Assembly (NCBI GenBank): GCA_022072255.1
Contig: JAJVHZ010000014.1
Span: 1-64,000, forward strand
Length of the DNA stretch: 64,000 bases
Reading direction: 5' to 3'
From: Gammaproteobacteria bacterium
Lineage (GTDB): Bacteria > Pseudomonadota > Gammaproteobacteria > JAJPIJ01
Of the stretch, positions 49,990 through 60,594 are shown piece by piece. Under the pieces are notes generated by a model. The model was given only the letters and a program-made list of their open reading frames with translations, made no database searches and had not been told where the DNA came from. Made by a program: the position numbers and the translations under genes. Within the stretch, counting starts at the first letter, position 1, and each line of letters opens with the position of its first letter.

Positions 49990-50195
49990 TTCATCGGTTT
50001 CCGTTTGCCTGCGCATTTCCGCGCTGCCGCGCGGTCGGCAGGACCGGCCCCCGAAAGCCGTGGCCGGGCGCGCTGCACGCAGTGCGCGATCCGCGCCCAA
50101 GTGCCGCACTCGCCGCGGGTGCTTGCCATGATGCCAGAACCGGCACGGCAATCAGAGTGAAGCGTCGTCTGGGTCACAGTACGCGCAGCGCCCGG

Positions 50196-50237
50196 GTAGT
50201 AAACAAGACCTTTCACTTCATGTTATCGTAGTAAACA
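50196..50237. promoter_or_regulatory. Direct repeat GTAGTAAACA x2, 32 bp apart, upstream of the signalling locus
   Basis: gtagtaaaca at 50196-50205 and 50228-50237. Confidence 0.4.
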
Positions 50238-50626
50238 CGTGGTTATTCGATACCGCGAACCGGATCGTCCAACGCCAGCGATGGCCTTTAGGCAGAGGCG
50301 CACGTAAGCGCGTAAACCCCAACGAGACCCCGACGAAACAATAACTTAGATATTGGGCGACCGGAAGATGATCACCTCGGCGACCGCCGGCGGTGACATC
50401 GGCCAAGTTCGTCGGGGACTGAGTGCATGTTACCGGCAGCGGGATGCGGTCGGGCGCAGGTCTGTGGACCGCCCGCGTCCTCACCGTGCATCCCCAGCCG
50501 CGACGGCCGCAGGCCCGTCGCGCCGCGGGGAGGACATGCCTCCGCGGTGGGCTAAGTCGGCCGGGAAGTCCGGCTCCAGCTTGTACACGATAAGGAGATC
50601 GGGACTGGAACGTAGGAGTGCCCAGG

Positions 50627-52294
50627 ATGTTGGATACAGAGTTCTGCCGGCAGATCCTCAAGCTGCCGGAACCATGGGTGGTCGAGGACGTGCGTGTGGA
50701 TAAACCGTCCAATCGCATCGACGTCCGGATCGGCATGCCCCGACGCAAGCGCACCTTCTTCAGCCGCCAAGCAACCTGTCCGCGCTGCCATCGCGCCCTG
50801 CCCGCGACCGGCGGTGGTCAGCGTGTGGTCAGGCACCTGAACATCGGTGAGATGCGCACTTACCTGACCGTACCGGCCGCACCGGCGGAGGGAAGCGCGA
50901 ACGACTGCGGATGCCGGCGGGTGTGGAGCAATCCCGGCTCGCGCTTCACCCAGGAGATGGAGCGCCAGGTCGTCGAAGGCCTGCATCTGCTGGGTTCGAT
51001 CGACGCCGTCGCCAAGCTGTTTCTCGTCAACGCCGTGGACGTCCGCGAGATCAACGCGCAGCACCGCATCATCGATTCCGACAAGCCTGCGCCCGCGCCG
51101 ACCCACACCATCGCCTACGCCCAGGCGCACTTCAACGACGGCGGACTGGAGGTGGCCTACATCGACGAGGAGGAATACCACACCGCGCCGGCCACCCCGC
51201 GACCGGCGCCGCCGAGGGAAAACCACGAGGCCGTGCCGCCGGAATCCGATCCGGTCTGGCAGCGTCTCATCGATCATTCCGCGCACGCCAGCCTGCAGTC
51301 ATTGGGCCTGAAGATGCTGCTCGAGCAGATCCGGCTCAGCGTCACCGGCAATCGCTCCGAGAACGCGCGCCTGGCGGCCGCCCGAATCCTGCGGCAGTAC
51401 TTCGTCAAGCACTGGCGGCGCAGCCAGATGGAACTCGCGTCGCTGCTCAGCGAGGCGCGTGCGAATCCGGGTACGCAGCCGGCCCAGGCGCCGGCCAAGC
51501 CGCTCATCGAGCCGCCGCCGGAATCCGACCCAGGCTGGCAGTACCTCATCGAGGGGCGCATACCCGTTCACGCCGAGGCCATAGGCCTGAAGATGCTGAT
51601 CGAACGCCTGCGACTGACGCTGGGCTCGCGGCCCTCGGCCGAAAGCCGAATTGCCGGCGCCCGCATCCTGCGCGAGTTCTTCGTCAAGCACTGCGCCCGT
51701 CATCAGAGCGAGCTGGCGCAGGTGGTCGCGGCTGGGAAGGCGCACATGCAGCGCACGGCGGCCTCGGCACGCCCGCAGACGGCGGCGGCCATCGAAGTGC
51801 CGCCCGAGTCGGCGCGCTGCTGGCAGTTGCTGATCGACGGTCAACTGGAGATCCAGAGCTCCGCCGTGGGCCTGACCATGCTGCTGGAGCGCATCCGGCT
51901 GACGATAGGTCGCGTACCCTCCCCGGCCGCACGCCTCGCCGCGGCCCGGGTAATGCGCCAGTATTTCGAAAAGTACCGCAGCCGCCACGAGACCGAGCTG
52001 AAGCTGCTGATCGCCGAGGATGCGCTCTACCGTGCGGACGCAAGCGGCCAGGTGGTGGAGTTCGTCGAGGTACCGCCGGAGAACCATCCGAGCTGGGACA
52101 AGCTGATACGCGGCGAGCTGCAGCTCCGTACCGAGGCGCTGGGCCTGAAAATGCTGCTCGAGCGGGTGCGCCTGTCGCTGGGTTCCGAGCCCACCGAAGC
52201 GCTGCGGCTCGCCGCCGCGCGCGTGCTGCGGCAGTATTTCATCAAGCATCGCAGCCGCCACCGCGCCGAACTCGAGCAGCTCAAGGCGGCCTAG
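50627..52294 (+). CDS. ISL3-type zinc-finger-like N-terminus followed by four ~90-aa helical repeats
   Basis: CPRCHRALPATGGGQRVVRHLNIGEMRTYLTV...CGC...GSIDAVAKLFLVNAVDVREIN, then four copies of PPEs..W..LI.g.....ala(i/v)GLkMLlERiRLtlg..p....RlaaAriLRqyFvKh.rrh..EL. Confidence 0.7.
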   Translation: MLDTEFCRQILKLPEPWVVEDVRVDKPSNRIDVRIGMPRRKRTFFSRQATCPRCHRALPATGGGQRVVRHLNIGEMRTYLTVPAAPAEGSANDCGCRRVWSNPGSRFTQEMERQVVEGLHLLGSIDAVAKLFLVNAVDVREINAQHRIIDSDKPAPAPTHTIAYAQAHFNDGGLEVAYIDEEEYHTAPATPRPAPPRENHEAVPPESDPVWQRLIDHSAHASLQSLGLKMLLEQIRLSVTGNRSENARLAAARILRQYFVKHWRRSQMELASLLSEARANPGTQPAQAPAKPLIEPPPESDPGWQYLIEGRIPVHAEAIGLKMLIERLRLTLGSRPSAESRIAGARILREFFVKHCARHQSELAQVVAAGKAHMQRTAASARPQTAAAIEVPPESARCWQLLIDGQLEIQSSAVGLTMLLERIRLTIGRVPSPAARLAAARVMRQYFEKYRSRHETELKLLIAEDALYRADASGQVVEFVEVPPENHPSWDKLIRGELQLRTEALGLKMLLERVRLSLGSEPTEALRLAAARVLRQYFIKHRSRHRAELEQLKAA

Positions 52295-52308: not shown

Positions 52309-53346
52309 ATGTTCGGGATTTCCAGCCCGCAGTCTGCGAACGCATCCCTCGGCAGCGTCAGCGGCCGCCTGGTGACGGTCACGGAGGCCGCAGCGGCCAT
52401 CAGACAGGGGCGGGTGCTCTGGATCGGCGGCGACGAGACGCTGCTGCGTCAGCTTCCCACCGGCCAGTGGATAGGCGGATCGATCCCCTACTTCGTCGCG
52501 CAGAACGGCGGGGAGACGACGCGCGAACGCGTGTTCTGCTCGGAATTGCCGGCCAATATCGCCACCGGCATGGACATCCGCTTCTACGACCTGGACACCA
52601 TCGGCCGTATAGCCGTCGAGGCGCCCGAAAACGGCTTCAGCATCCTGTTGATTCCGGCCACCAGCGAGCTGCATCTGAGCTACGCGCGAAACGCGCCCGG
52701 CTACGATGAGATGTTCCTGAAGCCGATCGCGGGCTGGGTCACGGGTGTGCATCTGGACGACCTCGGCCGGTCGCACCCGATCGTGTACAACGGCAAGACC
52801 GGCGAGGGCTCGCGCGAACGCGGCCTGGCAATGCACGTCGCGCTGCGTCCGGAGAAGATCGCCCAGATCGGCATCGTGAATACCTTCAGGCAGGGCAACG
52901 GCGACACGCTGGTGTTTCCCGAAACCGGCTTCGCCGCCAGCCGTTGCGAGGTCAACGGCGTGGAGCGCAATTTCGCCGAGTATGTGCGCGAACTGAAGAT
53001 CGATCAGCGCCTGCCGCTGGTGGCGGATTATTCGGGCACGATGATCAACGTCGGGCTGCAGCGCGTCGACGAGCGCGGCGACGAGGTGTCGTTCTACGCG
53101 CCGGTCTTCAAGGGCATCCGTTACCGGTTTGCCGCGCCGGTGGAGAATTACGTCGAGGCATTCCAGTCGGCGATACCGAAGCTGGATCAGCCGGTCGTGT
53201 TCAGCTGCAACTGCGTCCTGAACTACCTGTACTCGGAGCTGGAAGGCAAGCACACTGCGCACATGACCGGCCCGATGACCTTCGGCGAGATCGCCTATCA
53301 GCTCCTGAACCAGACCATGGTCTACCTGACCGTCGAGGATGCCTGA
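52309..53346 (+). CDS. Conserved-looking hypothetical protein, family not recognised
   Basis: 346 aa; 15 bp after the repeat gene, with RBS-like aaaggagg. Confidence 0.8.
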   Translation: MFGISSPQSANASLGSVSGRLVTVTEAAAAIRQGRVLWIGGDETLLRQLPTGQWIGGSIPYFVAQNGGETTRERVFCSELPANIATGMDIRFYDLDTIGRIAVEAPENGFSILLIPATSELHLSYARNAPGYDEMFLKPIAGWVTGVHLDDLGRSHPIVYNGKTGEGSRERGLAMHVALRPEKIAQIGIVNTFRQGNGDTLVFPETGFAASRCEVNGVERNFAEYVRELKIDQRLPLVADYSGTMINVGLQRVDERGDEVSFYAPVFKGIRYRFAAPVENYVEAFQSAIPKLDQPVVFSCNCVLNYLYSELEGKHTAHMTGPMTFGEIAYQLLNQTMVYLTVEDA

Positions 53347-53348
53347 GC

Positions 53349-54284
53349 GTGAGCGCCAGCCCCGAGAACATAGGCGCGTCCCCTTTTGATGCCGGCCCGC
53401 TCCCGCCCCGTCCCATATCCATATCGATGATCGGCGTCAGTGCCGACGACCGACGCCAGCTCCTGGACGCGTTCGAGGAGATCCCTGACGACCGCATCCT
53501 CTACCGGCCGGTCGCGCTGCATCAGCGCCCGGATATCCTGCTCGTAAATGCCGACGACGCCCGCTCGCTGGCCACCTGGGTGCGTTACCGAAATTACGCC
53601 CGCCAATTGGGCGGGGAACCGCCGAGCGTCGTCATCTCCGGCGACCGGACGTTCGACACGGCACATTATCAGCTCGCCAGCCCGCTGGACGGCCGCGCGG
53701 CGCTGCGGCTTTTCAATCGCATCGTCAGCGAACGCCTCACGGTGAAGGAGATCGAGGCTCCGCAACGCCCGCCGCTGTCGGTGGTGTACTCACCGCCGCT
53801 CGATGAGACCGCGCTGCCGCCGCGTCTGCTCGACATGAATCCGTCGGCCGACGAATCTCTGCCGCTCGCCTCGGTCGCCAGCGACATGGTCGCGCCCGAC
53901 GTCGATCTGAACGTAGCGGCGGTGCGCGCCCTGGTCATCGACGACAGCCTGCCGGTTCGCATCCAGATGAAGCAGGCGCTGCACCCACTGGGCTGGCAGG
54001 TGGACTTTGCCGAGAGCGGCGAGCAGGCCCTGCCGCTCCTGGACAACAACGACTACAACATCATCTTCGTCGACACCATCATGCCCAACATGGACGGTTA
54101 CGAAGTCTGCCGCCACGCGAAGGCGGGGCGCGCCAGGGACGTCCCCGTGGTGATGCTGACCAGCGCCTCCAGCCCCGCCGATCGGGTGCGGGGGAAGCTC
54201 GCGGGTTGCGATACCTACCTTATCAAGCCCGTCACTCCGCAGGTCCTGCGCCAGCTGCTGGAGCAGTATCTCTCGGTGCGCTAG
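53349..54284 (+). CDS. Response regulator: degenerate N-terminal receiver-like region plus canonical C-terminal receiver
   Basis: C-terminus VRALVIDDSLPVRIQMKQAL...IIFVDTIMPNMDGYEVC...VVMLTSASS...YLIKPVT; N-terminal DILLVNADD...VVISGDR...LASPLDG. Confidence 0.85.
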   Translation: MSASPENIGASPFDAGPLPPRPISISMIGVSADDRRQLLDAFEEIPDDRILYRPVALHQRPDILLVNADDARSLATWVRYRNYARQLGGEPPSVVISGDRTFDTAHYQLASPLDGRAALRLFNRIVSERLTVKEIEAPQRPPLSVVYSPPLDETALPPRLLDMNPSADESLPLASVASDMVAPDVDLNVAAVRALVIDDSLPVRIQMKQALHPLGWQVDFAESGEQALPLLDNNDYNIIFVDTIMPNMDGYEVCRHAKAGRARDVPVVMLTSASSPADRVRGKLAGCDTYLIKPVTPQVLRQLLEQYLSVR

Positions 54285-54383: not shown

Positions 54384-54872
54384 ATGAGCACCGCCGACGC
54401 CGGATTGCTGCTGGCGGCAGAGGTTCAGGGTCCCGCACGCCGGGAACGCCGGTTCGGTTTTCGCATCGGCGGCACGGGGTTCCTCGTGCCGGCCGGCGTG
54501 GCGAGCGAGATCGTGCAGAACCCCGTCGTCCATCGCATCCCCTGGCAGACTTCGCACATGCGGGGACTCGTCGGTCACCGCGGCAACGTCGTGCCCGTGT
54601 TCGAACTGTCAGCACTGTTTCACACGGTGGTGCGCAGCGAACCCGGCGCCTACCTGCTGATCCTCGACGGCGGTGAACGTGCGGGCGGGGTCTTCGTCGA
54701 TACCTTGCCGACCATGCTCGCCTGCGAGGCCGACGAGCATCCCGATTTCAGCGGTTTGCCCTCTCCGCTGTCCGAAACCGTGCAGGGCACCCGCGTCGCC
54801 GCGGGGGAGCGCTGGTTCGAACTGGACCACATGGCGTTGTTCGCGGCGCTCGCCCGCATGCACGCGGCCTGA
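54384..54872 (+). CDS. CheW/PilI-like coupling protein
   Basis: FGFRIGGTGFLVPAGVASEIVQNPVVHRIPWQTSHMRGLVGHRGNVVPVFEL. Confidence 0.88.
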   Translation: MSTADAGLLLAAEVQGPARRERRFGFRIGGTGFLVPAGVASEIVQNPVVHRIPWQTSHMRGLVGHRGNVVPVFELSALFHTVVRSEPGAYLLILDGGERAGGVFVDTLPTMLACEADEHPDFSGLPSPLSETVQGTRVAAGERWFELDHMALFAALARMHAA

Positions 54873-54935: not shown

Positions 54936-56330
54936 ATGAAGTCCGCAAGATGGTCGGTCCGCGCTCGCCTCATTGCCCTGGTGCTGGCAGTGCACGCCTT
55001 CGGTCTGCTGCTGGGGGCCACCCTGATGCACCGCACGGGCTCCGCGCGGGCTCACCTCGCCGATGCCCTGCCGATGACCGCCGTCATCGCGCTGGGCGTC
55101 ATTTTGGTCGGTGTCATAGCGGTGCTTGCGATCCGCAGGTGGCTCGCGCCACTGGATCGCCTGCGGATCACCCTTCAACGCGTGAACGACGGCGATATCG
55201 ACGTCCGCGCCGCGGTCGACACCGACGATGAGTTCGAGGCGCTCGGGGCCGGTATCGACAACGTCGTCGCGCACCGCTGCAGCACGCTGCAAATCGAGGG
55301 TGAAAGCTATCGGCTCCACCAGTCCGTCGGCGCGATAATGCAGGCGGTTACGCGCATTGCCGGGCGCGATCTCAGCGCCCACGCACCGGTGCGCGACGAT
55401 GCCACGGGAGCGATCGCCGAGGCGCTGAACACCATGATCGGCGACACGGCGGCGGTCCTTCGCAGCGTGACGGAAGTCGCCACCAACGTTGCCGAGACCA
55501 CCAACCTCGTCAAGTCCCAATCCGATCACATCGTCATGCTGGCCCGCGCCGAACGCGAGAACCTCGAGGAGTGCGTCAATGATCTCGAGGTGGCGGCCGA
55601 CGCCCACAGCCACATCGCGCGCATGGCGATCGCCTGCGCGGAGGCGGGAGAAAAGGCCCTGGTAGCCACGCGGATTGCGCGCGTGTCGGTGCAGAACAAC
55701 GTATCTGGGTTCCAATCCATACGCACGACGCTGGCGGACACCGAACGGCGCGTGCGGCTGCTGCTGGACCGATGCCAGGAGATATCCGGCGCGGTCAACC
55801 TCATCAGCCATCTCACCGAGCGCACCCACGTACTCGCCCTGAACGCGAGCATGCACGCCTCGGCGGTGGGCGACGCCGGTCGCGGCTTCAGCGCGGTGGC
55901 CGACGAGGTGCAGCGCCTGGCCGAGAACACCCGCGAAATGGCCTCCCAGATCAGCGATATCGTGCAAAGCGTGCAGGCAGACACCGCCGACACGATGCAT
56001 TCGCTGCAGATGCTGAGCGAGCACGTGCAGAGCGGGAACGAACTGGTCGATCGCAGCGGCCGCGACATGCAGGCCACCGAGGAGGCGGCCGGCAACCTCG
56101 TGGATCTGATCCGCAAGATCGCGGCGGCCGCGGCCACACAGAGACAGATCAGCGCAACCATACGCCAGCGCACGACGGCAATCATCGAGAACGTGAGCCG
56201 CACCGGCGCGTATCTGCTCGGGCAGGCCGAGCACACCGACAATCTCGCCGAGCAGGCGATGGCGCTGGTGGAATCGGTGAGCGCCTATCGGCTGCCGGAG
56301 GAGGACGATGAAACGTCTCCACGGGCATGA
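54936..56330 (+). CDS. PilJ-like methyl-accepting chemotaxis protein without a periplasmic domain
   Basis: Two TM helices close together; HAMP-like segments; hairpin tip LTERTHVLALNASMHASAVGDAGRGFSAVADEVQRLAENT. Confidence 0.88.
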   Translation: MKSARWSVRARLIALVLAVHAFGLLLGATLMHRTGSARAHLADALPMTAVIALGVILVGVIAVLAIRRWLAPLDRLRITLQRVNDGDIDVRAAVDTDDEFEALGAGIDNVVAHRCSTLQIEGESYRLHQSVGAIMQAVTRIAGRDLSAHAPVRDDATGAIAEALNTMIGDTAAVLRSVTEVATNVAETTNLVKSQSDHIVMLARAERENLEECVNDLEVAADAHSHIARMAIACAEAGEKALVATRIARVSVQNNVSGFQSIRTTLADTERRVRLLLDRCQEISGAVNLISHLTERTHVLALNASMHASAVGDAGRGFSAVADEVQRLAENTREMASQISDIVQSVQADTADTMHSLQMLSEHVQSGNELVDRSGRDMQATEEAAGNLVDLIRKIAAAAATQRQISATIRQRTTAIIENVSRTGAYLLGQAEHTDNLAEQAMALVESVSAYRLPEEDDETSPRA

Positions 56331-56399: not shown

Positions 56400-59174
56400 A
56401 TGAACCATCCCAGCCGCGAGGTCGTGCGCATGCTGCAGGAGGAACTGCAGGACGTCTCCGCCAGCCTGCTGTCCTCGCCGCTCGGGCCCGGGGATACGCC
56501 GGCGCTGGCGCTGCGTGATCTGTCCCGCCGCCTGCACCGCCTCGCCGGGATGGCGCGTGCCCTCGGCCTGGCCGGTCTGCAACGCGCGATCGAGCATGCG
56601 CAGATCAACGTGCGGGCATGGCTGAGCCAGCATCCCAACGCGGCGCAGCCGCAACTGTGGCGGCTGGTGGTGGAATGGCCTTTGGAGGTCAACCGCTACC
56701 TCGACCGGCTCGAATCGACGGATTCAATCGCAGCGCTCTGCAATTTTCTCGGCAACCGGGACTGGCTTCGGCCGCTGCCGCCCGAGGAGTTCGAGACCCT
56801 CGCGACGGAGCATTGCCCCGAGCCTCCGACACCGTCCCCGACGAGCGCCGAGGACTCGCTGTCGCTGAAGATCCCCGAAGACGTCTCCCCCGCGATGGTG
56901 GTCGAGCTGCTGCAGGAAGTTCCGGACCTCACCGAACGGCTGGCCCGCCTGGTGGATGCATGGAGCGAAGACGGCAAGACCACTCACAGCCTGATGGAGG
57001 CGCAGCGGGTAGCGCACGCGATCAAGGGCGCGGCCAACACGGTCGGCATCCGCGGCATCGCAAGATTCACGCACGTGCTGGAGGACGTGCTCGCCCACGA
57101 GAATCACTCGCCGACACAATCCCGACCCCTGCGTTCCCTGGTTGCGCGCGCTGTGGCCTGCCTGCACCAGATGAGCGACACGCTGCTCGGTCGGAGTTCC
57201 ACGCCGGACGATGCGGCCGCAATACTTGCGGCCATGCAGGTGCACCTCGACGGCATGGCTGCCGGCGGCCAGGCGGCGGAGGCCGCCCGTGCGGAGGGCG
57301 CCGTGGCCGGTGGGGCGGACGCCATCGCCGAGGGCGATGACGGCCTCGCTGCCGTCTCGGCGCTGCCGCCGGCCGGCATCAGGATCAATCCGGCGCTCAT
57401 CGACGAGGTATTCCGGATCGCCGGGGAATGCGCGGTGTCCGTGAATCACATGCGGGAGGAACTGCACCGCACCCGCCAGATCGTGCAGGAACTCGCGCGT
57501 CGCGTGATGGCGGCGCGGGAGCCGGTGCAGGCCCTGCTCGCGATGCGCCTCCCCGGCGGGTCGGATCCCGGTGGCGCGGCCACGGCGTTGGGGCCGGTCA
57601 GGCAGCAGGACCTGCGTGAAGCCATCGCCGATGCGCTGATCCTCGGCGAGGATCTGCAGTCTCAGGTCCGTCTCATCGAAGAGCAGCTCAATGGCCACGA
57701 ACGGCTGAACGAGGAACTGCGCGGCCGGGTACGGCAATGCCGCATGATGCCGGCCGGGGAGATCGTCCCCAGGCTCAGGCGCGCGGTGGCGCAGGCCGCG
57801 CGCCTGGCGGGCAAGGAGACCGAGCTCGCCGTCGCCGGCGGCCATACCCTGGTCGATACCTACATACTCAACGCCGTGGTGGATCCGCTCATGCACGCCC
57901 TGCGCAACGCGGTCGATCACGGCATCGAGCCGGGCGCCGAGAGGCTGCGTCAGGGGAAGTCCGCGATCGGCAGGGTGAACCTGACCTTCCAGCACGAGGC
58001 CGACGAGATACTGATCCGCTGCCAGGACGACGGGCGCGGGCTCGACGCCGCGCTCATACGTCAGCGTGCCATTGCGCGCGGGCTCATCGCCCCGGGCGAG
58101 GAGCCCGACCAGGAACAACTGGCCCGGCTGGTCTTCCGTCCCGGTTTCTCCACGCGCGAACACGCCTCGCAGACCTCCGGCCGGGGCATCGGCATGTCTG
58201 CCATCGCCGCGCAGATCGCGCGCCTCAAGGGGTCGGTGGACATACGTTCGCAACCGGGGACAGGCTGCACGATCGAGATCCGGGTACCGGAATCGATGCT
58301 GTCGGTCGGTGTCGTGCTGGTGGCCGTCAACAACTATACCGTGGCGATCTCCAATCGAGGCCTGCTGCGGGTCAGCATGATCGAGGCCGATCAGGTCCGC
58401 ACTGAGGACGAGGACCGTTACGCTGAACTGGACGGCGATCGCGTGCCGGTGCAGACGCTGAACTCGCTGCTGTTCGCCAATGCCGCCCCGCTCGCCGCGA
58501 CGCCGCATACGCAGTTGCCGGCGCTGCTCATGCGCGCAGGCGAGACCCGCCGCCTGGTCGTACTCGAGAGCATCCTCGGAACGCGCACGATGAGTCTGAC
58601 CGGCCCGGGCCTCTACCTGCGCACGATGCCGGGCCTGCTGGGCACCACGACCATGGCCGACGGAATGATCGTGCCGGTTCTGGATCTCACCGAGTTGCTC
58701 GCGCAGCCCGCCGGGTGGACGGCGAATGCGCCGCGCGAGCCGGAAGGCGCGACCCAGAAGGACAGCCGCCCCCTGGCCCTCGCCGTGGACGATTCGATCA
58801 GCATCCTCCGCGAGCTGACCCAGACCCTGGGCGCCCACGGGCTACGGACGCATACCCTGCCGGATGGCGCGCGCGCCTGGGAGTATCTGCAATCGGTCAA
58901 ACCGAGCCTGGTCATCGTCGACGCCAACATACCGGGCATGAGCGGCGCGGAGCTGTGTTCCAGGATCCGCACCGACGATCGCCTGCGTCCCGTGCCGGTC
59001 ATCATGATCAGTGCCAATGCGGACGCCTACCGTGCCCGCGCCCAGCAGGCTGGCGCCACGTGGCTGCTGCCCAAGACCGGATTGCGGCCGCTGCTCGAGG
59101 AGGTCCTGCAGCGGATTCTCGTTCCCGCCGGATCCGAGGCCGGCAAGCAGGACAACTCCTCGGTGCCGGCCTGA
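56400..59174 (+). CDS. CheA/ChpA-like hybrid histidine kinase (Hpt-like, Hpt, HATPase, CheW, REC)
   Basis: AHAIKGAANTVGI; HALRNAVDHGIE; DDGRGLD; SGRGIGMSAIAAQI; LAVDDSISILRELTQ...LVIVDANIPGMSG. Confidence 0.93.
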   Translation: MNHPSREVVRMLQEELQDVSASLLSSPLGPGDTPALALRDLSRRLHRLAGMARALGLAGLQRAIEHAQINVRAWLSQHPNAAQPQLWRLVVEWPLEVNRYLDRLESTDSIAALCNFLGNRDWLRPLPPEEFETLATEHCPEPPTPSPTSAEDSLSLKIPEDVSPAMVVELLQEVPDLTERLARLVDAWSEDGKTTHSLMEAQRVAHAIKGAANTVGIRGIARFTHVLEDVLAHENHSPTQSRPLRSLVARAVACLHQMSDTLLGRSSTPDDAAAILAAMQVHLDGMAAGGQAAEAARAEGAVAGGADAIAEGDDGLAAVSALPPAGIRINPALIDEVFRIAGECAVSVNHMREELHRTRQIVQELARRVMAAREPVQALLAMRLPGGSDPGGAATALGPVRQQDLREAIADALILGEDLQSQVRLIEEQLNGHERLNEELRGRVRQCRMMPAGEIVPRLRRAVAQAARLAGKETELAVAGGHTLVDTYILNAVVDPLMHALRNAVDHGIEPGAERLRQGKSAIGRVNLTFQHEADEILIRCQDDGRGLDAALIRQRAIARGLIAPGEEPDQEQLARLVFRPGFSTREHASQTSGRGIGMSAIAAQIARLKGSVDIRSQPGTGCTIEIRVPESMLSVGVVLVAVNNYTVAISNRGLLRVSMIEADQVRTEDEDRYAELDGDRVPVQTLNSLLFANAAPLAATPHTQLPALLMRAGETRRLVVLESILGTRTMSLTGPGLYLRTMPGLLGTTTMADGMIVPVLDLTELLAQPAGWTANAPREPEGATQKDSRPLALAVDDSISILRELTQTLGAHGLRTHTLPDGARAWEYLQSVKPSLVIVDANIPGMSGAELCSRIRTDDRLRPVPVIMISANADAYRARAQQAGATWLLPKTGLRPLLEEVLQRILVPAGSEAGKQDNSSVPA

Positions 59175-59259: not shown

Positions 59260-60594
59260 GTGCTCAAGGTTCTGGTCATTGATGACTCGCGCGTCGTGCG
59301 CAAGATGATGGTGGAGTCACTGCGCGCGGAATTCGCGGGCGCAGCCGTCGACGAGTACGATCCGTGCATCCAGGGATTCCCGGGTTCGGAATTCGGATGG
59401 TCGTATTACGACGTGGTGTTCCTCGATTACAACCTCGGGCTGGCCGGCGAGGACGGCCTCACCTGGCTGCGCAAGTTCCAGAATTTCGCCGACATGCCGC
59501 CGGTCATCATACTGACCGACGAGGAGCGCATCAGCGTCATCGTCAAGGCGATCAAGGCCGGCGCCAAGGACTACGTCCTGAAACGCGATCTCAAGAATGC
59601 GGACCTGGCCAACATCATCTACCGCGCGCTCGGTATCGAGGGAGACGAGGCCGAGGCCAACACGCTCAACGAGATCCCCGCCCTGGAGGTGCCCACCGCG
59701 GCCACCGAGCAGACGCACGGGCACGAACAGAACGCCCCGGCCACGCAGCGGCCGGAATCCACCGTGACGCGCCGTAACGGCGCGCCACAGGACACCATAC
59801 GCGTACACATCCCCGGCTACCGCATCATCGCCCCGATTGCGCAGGGCGGCATGACCACGATCTTCCTCGCCCAGAGGGTCGAGGACGACCTGGAGATCGT
59901 CCTGAAACTGATGTTCACGCGCGATCAGCCCGACACGCCGCTGCTGCGCTATTTCATGCAGGAGTACGCGCTCATCTCCAAGCTGAACCACCCCCACATC
60001 ATCAAGATCTTCGAGCGCGCGTTCGCGAAGGACTTCGCCTATATCGCCATGGAGTATCTGCCCGCCGGCAACCTGGTCGCACGCATCCGCAAGGGCCTGA
60101 TGCCGGACAAGGCGCTGCAGTACATACGCCAGATCGCCGAGGCGCTCGGGGCGGTACACAACCTGAGCATCGTGCACCGGGACCTGAAGCCATCGAACAT
60201 ACTGTTCCGCCAGAACGACACCGTGGCGATCACGGACTTCGGCGTGGCGCATTTCGCGGCCGGCATGAGCGGCATCGACGAGACGCAGGTGCTGATCGGC
60301 AGCCCGTCCTACATGAGCCCGGAGCAGTGCAAGCGTCGTCCCGTTGATCCGCGCAGCGATCTATACAGTCTCGGCGTGCTCATGTTCGAGATGCTGACGG
60401 GGGGTAAGCCGTACACGGGGCGCGGCATTCCGGAGATCATCGATGCCCACATACGGGCCCCGGTACCGCGTCTTCCCGACGAACTGCGGCAGTATCAACC
60501 GCTCATAGACGGCCTGCTGGCAAAGGATCCGGCCGAGCGGTTTCAGAGCGCCGGCGAGTTCATCGCCGGCCTGGAGTGGATCTGCCAGGGCTGA
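59260..60594 (+). CDS. Receiver domain fused to a Hanks-type Ser/Thr protein kinase
   Basis: VLVIDDSRVVRKMM...VVFLDYNLG...YVLKRD; kinase APIAQGGMTTIFLAQ, VLKLM, IVHRDLKPSNIL, ITDFGVA, GSPSYMSPEQ. Confidence 0.93.
   Translation: MLKVLVIDDSRVVRKMMVESLRAEFAGAAVDEYDPCIQGFPGSEFGWSYYDVVFLDYNLGLAGEDGLTWLRKFQNFADMPPVIILTDEERISVIVKAIKAGAKDYVLKRDLKNADLANIIYRALGIEGDEAEANTLNEIPALEVPTAATEQTHGHEQNAPATQRPESTVTRRNGAPQDTIRVHIPGYRIIAPIAQGGMTTIFLAQRVEDDLEIVLKLMFTRDQPDTPLLRYFMQEYALISKLNHPHIIKIFERAFAKDFAYIAMEYLPAGNLVARIRKGLMPDKALQYIRQIAEALGAVHNLSIVHRDLKPSNILFRQNDTVAITDFGVAHFAAGMSGIDETQVLIGSPSYMSPEQCKRRPVDPRSDLYSLGVLMFEMLTGGKPYTGRGIPEIIDAHIRAPVPRLPDELRQYQPLIDGLLAKDPAERFQSAGEFIAGLEWICQG

Follow-up and report, generated by a model that had tools for sequence, protein, structure and literature searches.

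Exaptation of the nucleic-acid-binding parts of transposons is already known as a phenomenon: some transposon proteins have become regulators in hosts or phages, and TldR, which derives from TnpB, illustrates it. Among chemosensory systems, Pil-Chp-like clusters combine CheW, an MCP, a hybrid CheA with a C-terminal REC domain, and REC proteins. TldR itself has been described as a regulator (PMC13418256), and NosP, a FIST protein, acts as an auxiliary sensor controlling an adjacent sensor-less kinase (PMC12570481). Within the window (the whole 64,000-nucleotide stretch analysed here), an operon for chemotaxis-like signalling seems to have recruited part of a transposon. A literature search, in which coverage of subscription journals was thin, returned no paper on a chemosensory protein that carries an ISL3 head, and none naming DUF6976, the product of the adjacent gene.

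The open reading frame at 50627-52294 is a real gene, because an AGGAG precedes its ATG, another genome of the genus (G001/L003) has a 91%-identical orthologue whose neighbouring genes are arranged alike, and dN/dS between the two is about 0.16 (dN 0.045, dS 0.29 overall). That orthologue, together with a homologue in a genome of another family (G142), led us to reject a chance fusion or assembly artefact. Both the protein and its leader are single-copy in the genome; on this ground, and because a search for a phage match to the protein found none, phage origin was rejected. An anti-phage defence role was likewise set aside, PADLOC having returned no match for the gene. A preliminary description had read the frame as an ISL3-like N-terminus followed by four tandem repeats of ~90 aa, and profile, homology and shuffle tests bear this out. 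The repeats begin at 51233, 51512, 51797 and 52070, at most 2 nt from the starts previously placed near 51234, 51513, 51799 and 52072, with periods of 93, 95 and 91 aa (Table 1).

Table 1. Features of the repeat-protein gene, its leader and the genes downstream, in window coordinates.
Feature	Position	Strand	Remarks
Leader region	50159..50458	+	conserved with same-genus genome
Whole gene: ISL3-type head, acidic linker, four repeats	50627..52294	+	555 aa
ISL3-derived head (by sequence), residues 1-149	50627..51073	+	PW-motif strand region, zinc ribbon, HTH region
Linker, residues 150-202, acidic, Pro-rich	51074..51232	+	no family match
Repeat 1 and linker, core 74 aa	51233..51511	+	
Repeat 2 and linker	51512..51796	+	AlphaFold2 model
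Repeat 3 and linker	51797..52069	+	
Repeat 4, C-terminal end of protein	52070..52291	+	without linker
DUF6976 (PF22396) protein, proposed repeat partner	52309..53346	+	14 nt downstream of repeat gene
Response regulator, unmatched N-terminal half and REC	53355..54284	+	coordinates are those of the open frame
CheW	54384..54872	+	Pfam
MCP: two predicted TM helices, HAMP, signalling domain	54936..56330	+	17-residue loop between TM helices
Hybrid CheA: Hpt (two stretches), HATPase, CheW-like, C-terminal REC	56400..59174	+	Pfam
REC-Ser/Thr protein kinase	59260..60594	+	Pfam

The preliminary description had made its reading depend on similarity to ISL3 N-termini, and such similarity is present in Pfam, NCBIfam, tblastn and hhalign. 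The zinc ribbon, with Cys pairs C51/C54 and C94/C96, is matched by Pfam Zn_ribbon_ISL3 (PF14690) at residues 48-83 (E 3.5e-6; 27.7 bits, above the cut-off of 25.5). The HTH region (about residues 107-149) is aligned by hhalign, and the Pfam HTH_Tnp_ISL3 (PF13542) match at residues 100-132 falls below its cut-off (E 0.016; 15.1 bits vs 27.4). The NCBIfam ISL3 transposase model aligns with residues 47-142 (E 2.6e-6), its full-length equivalog score (NF033550; 26.8 bits vs 180) not being reached. Annotated ISL3 transposases found by tblastn match inside residues 1-184, covering the first 130-184, with E down to 1e-8. The head scores 141-157 against genuine transposase N-termini (shuffle maximum 59), and hhalign of the heads against three transposases gives a probability of 99.2% (E 3.4e-19). 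The earlier claim that a DDE domain is absent holds as well: PF01610 finds no Pfam match in the protein, and residues 150-555, aligned to the DDE region of transposases, score at the level of shuffled sequence. Judged by sequence, the head is thus ISL3-derived with its DDE domain lost. It is also kept under purifying selection, with a dN/dS of about 0.14 (dN 0.051, dS 0.36) against the same-genus orthologue. ISL3 DDE fragments occur elsewhere in the same genome (L043, L044 and L045), unconnected to this gene.

Five intact heads were found, namely those of the window, its same-genus orthologue (L003/G001), G142, G304 and an Ideonella plasmid. G142 carries the same fusion at 43% head identity. 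The first three heads have all four Cys residues; the other two are without the four ligands and retain the PW, HL and W...F marks. The HTH recognition region varies between family members, and net charge ranges from +7 in the window (pI 9.7) down to -5 in G142 (pI 5.4). In an unrooted tree with ten ISL3 transposases, which has long branches and a small sample, all heads fall in a single clade (97/97); this nests, together with the ISCfr12-type transposase and two of its relatives, in a larger group (98/98) that is separate from other ISL3 members. Because the heads form one clade grouped in this way, a single exaptation is the simplest and probable reading; given that heads are rare whereas ISL3 transposases occur widely, the simplest direction would be from transposase to head. 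The preliminary description had proposed a regulator or scaffold. This interpretation is supported in part: the notion of a recruited head stands, to the extent that the ISL3-derived part is kept under selection, and either role may apply. The diverged recognition region, the reversed charge and the loss of Cys ligands in two heads favour scaffolding, docking or oligomerisation over sequence-specific DNA binding, although the window head, being basic and Cys-bearing, may still bind DNA. A further locus, in G525 (L036 6166-7207), is broken: what is left of a Cys-less head reads on into DUF6976, which carries a frameshift.

The four repeats of ~74 aa, mostly basic in the window, score 165-219 in pairs against a shuffle maximum of 45. 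Copies are 46-49% identical to the first and have 23 invariant columns, a set that shrinks to P2, W9 and F57 over 14 diverse repeat copies. AlphaFold2 applied to repeat 2 with eight aligned repeats places helices at 7-13, 24-37, 43-59 and 65-85 (mean pLDDT 86.6), predicting a compact all-helical four-helix unit; a full-length model was discarded as uninformative (pLDDT 38.6). The repeat is a previously undescribed domain, with no useful match in Pfam, NCBIfam, PHROGs or PDB sequences and no PDB or viral fold match to its model. Consistent with the preliminary description, neither sequence nor fold searches linked the repeats to a known catalytic domain, and a catalytic function was rejected. 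Matches to DUF4783, IBN_N and phrog_25872 were treated as chance, because they are short or below cut-off and lie on helical repeat segments. A tree of the repeats puts the copies of each genome, window and G142, together with moderate support (80/83), as would be expected if the two arrays expanded separately.

Among 369 genomes of the class, a four-repeat profile had matches in only four, two of the window genus, G142 (5 copies) and G304 (1 copy), with every gene directly upstream of DUF6976; in 399 genomes of the phylum, a wide repeat profile likewise recovered only loci adjoining DUF6976. In all 14 of the 14 repeat loci found, the repeat gene lies directly upstream of DUF6976. Most stand-alone copies were located by inspecting DUF6976 neighbours, so their adjacency is non-independent, and the 369- and 399-genome searches provide the unbiased check. 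Stand-alone single-repeat proteins occur in G285, G819, G818, G790, G791, G763, Sphaerotilus, Pseudosulfitobacter and G016, and Ideonella has a two-repeat protein upstream of DUF6976. An HMM whose only input was the copies in the window, L003 and G142 recovers all of these except G016 (E <=7.3e-6, in small search sets), and a wider HMM matches the G016 repeat (E 4e-7).

Three architectures are represented: a headless single repeat (9 loci), a head without Cys ligands and one or two repeats (2 loci), and a Cys4 head with four or five repeats in a chemosensory cluster (3 loci). A comparable cluster in G763 contains a single repeat and no head, which makes the head look like an extra, and the repeat is likely to be the core to which the head was later joined. 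The preliminary description missed this order of events, as it did the neighbouring DUF6976 as a partner in a chemosensory cluster. A DUF6976 tree needs two changes to explain the head-bearing loci, which may or may not form one clade.

The window DUF6976 protein matches FIST_C below cut-off (E 0.0046; 17.5 bits vs 28.5), and a Pfam search for FIST_N gave no match. A bona fide FIST protein in turn matches DUF6976 positions 214-320 (E 0.0007), and hhalign of DUF6976 against FIST gives a probability of 45%; the link to FIST_C is reciprocal and weak. DUF6976 can exist without the repeat, as five loci with none upstream (two in G804, and one each in G805, G809 and G810) demonstrate. Repeat-less DUF6976 genes in L074, L075 and L077 adjoin Ser/Thr kinase genes (L074 read by eye), and in L073 and L076 (L076 read by eye) genes for PP2C-type phosphatases occur close to DUF6976 loci that have the repeat.

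Downstream of this pair, on one strand, follow a response regulator, CheW, an MCP, CheA and a REC-Ser/Thr kinase. CheW, MCPsignal, HAMP, Hpt, HATPase_c and Response_reg all score above their Pfam cut-offs, and with CheA, CheW, MCP and receiver genes together this is a chemosensory system. The window MCP has no recognisable sensor or input domain, and nor does that of G142, which likewise has two TM helices with almost nothing between them. Cluster order in G142, where the repeat protein has five repeats, is identical to that of the window. G763 is broadly alike (headless single repeat, DUF6976, REC proteins, CheW, and MCP-like and CheA-like frames read by eye), with an extra REC gene and another gene. 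In G016, CheB- and CheR-like genes, also read by eye, adjoin DUF6976. The conserved unmatched N-terminal half of the response regulator, perhaps a degenerate receiver, is found in G142 and G763 too.

We propose that the window protein may be a multivalent adaptor of the chemosensory system, a reading that we consider evenly balanced between right and wrong. Each ~74-aa helical repeat would be a module that binds the DUF6976 protein of the adjacent gene, a physical interaction that we infer because repeat and DUF6976 form the constant element of these loci. DUF6976 would in turn probably be a FIST-like cytoplasmic sensor. As the copies are in tandem, the protein would be multivalent, and its four modules could gather several DUF6976 molecules on one chain and make them available to the CheA/CheW/MCP complex, to whose kinase the pair would be coupled. 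Because the window and G142 MCPs have no recognisable sensor domain, a FIST-like sensor delivered by an adaptor could supply their input. The ISCfr12-type transposase head, its DDE domain lost, would have been added to this adaptor, and its main present role would be that of a folded module for docking or oligomerisation. Against this model stand the weak FIST link, the five repeat-less DUF6976 loci and the small number of head-bearing loci (five intact); the Cys4 head of the window genus, at net +7, fits DNA binding too.

It is possible, if doubtful, that the protein is instead a transcription regulator, whose head still binds DNA in the leader or at other chromosomal sites and whose activity is tuned by DUF6976 binding to the repeats, turning sensing into gene expression. 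Retention of Cys4 in the window genus and G142, the basic window head and its dN/dS would all suit this reading, and so would the leader, which shows about 92% identity in the pair of same-genus genomes vs 80% at the four-fold sites of the gene and contains a 13-nt inverted repeat (50325-50337 / 50408-50420). An 11-nt word is also common to the window and G142 leaders, in opposite orientation, a result reached by 9 of 500 shuffles. However, the recognition region varies among heads, the G142 head is acidic and the G304 and Ideonella heads lack the Cys ligands. Furthermore, the leader comparison involves two close genomes, and the region also scores as a candidate RNA hairpin (fold z-score -2.4); a search against Rfam gave no match, and an explanation by an Rfam family was dropped.

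It is rather unlikely that the protein is a DNA-borne sensor array, in which the transposase-derived head would bind DNA and carry FIST-like sensors on its tandem repeats, giving sensing a direct effect on the chromosome. An anchor of low specificity, with the head binding DNA or a pole-marking protein and so positioning the DUF6976/chemosensory complex in the cell, agrees with the basic window head, the mostly basic repeats and the multivalent build, yet it sits poorly with the acidic G142 head and with stand-alone repeats that have no head at all, and we regard it as improbable. Scarcely credible is a functionless fusion that arose recently and by accident, when reading continued from an ISL3 remnant into a repeat gene: ISL3 DDE fragments in the same genome and the degraded G525 locus might recommend it, but the same fusion in another family, purifying selection on the head and the single head clade across five loci already contradict it.

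Overall, our analysis indicates that the DNA-binding head of an ISL3 transposase was exapted in bacteria, probably once, with headless, Cys-less-head and Cys4-head architectures still extant, and adds a new ~74-aa domain as the gene partner of DUF6976. Through the repeat-DUF6976 pair it can be tested what DUF6976 does, and how input reaches a chemoreceptor that has no recognisable sensor domain.

The closest relatives by sequence are the ISCfr12-type ISL3 transposases, with which the protein has in common a ~145-aa N-terminus with a PW motif, zinc ribbon, RHL motif, W..PGSR[FY]T and HTH region; unlike them it has four helical repeats in place of a DDE domain and a diverged HTH recognition region, and its gene lies in a conserved host cluster. 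As in NosP/FIST operons (PMC12570481), a gene for a FIST-like protein would lie beside sensor-less kinase signalling genes, a likeness in how the parts work only, whereas DUF6976 has a weak FIST_C match and no FIST_N, the kinase is CheA, and a repeat adaptor is added. The content of CheW, MCP, hybrid CheA with C-terminal REC and REC proteins resembles, by analogy, that of Pil-Chp-like clusters, from which the window cluster differs in having the repeat protein and DUF6976 in front and a REC-Ser/Thr kinase last, with CheR and CheB not seen. Finally, like TldR, the protein has lost catalytic activity and retained the nucleic-acid-binding part, but its head comes from a different transposon family, comprises the DNA-binding domain only and is joined to a new repeat domain.
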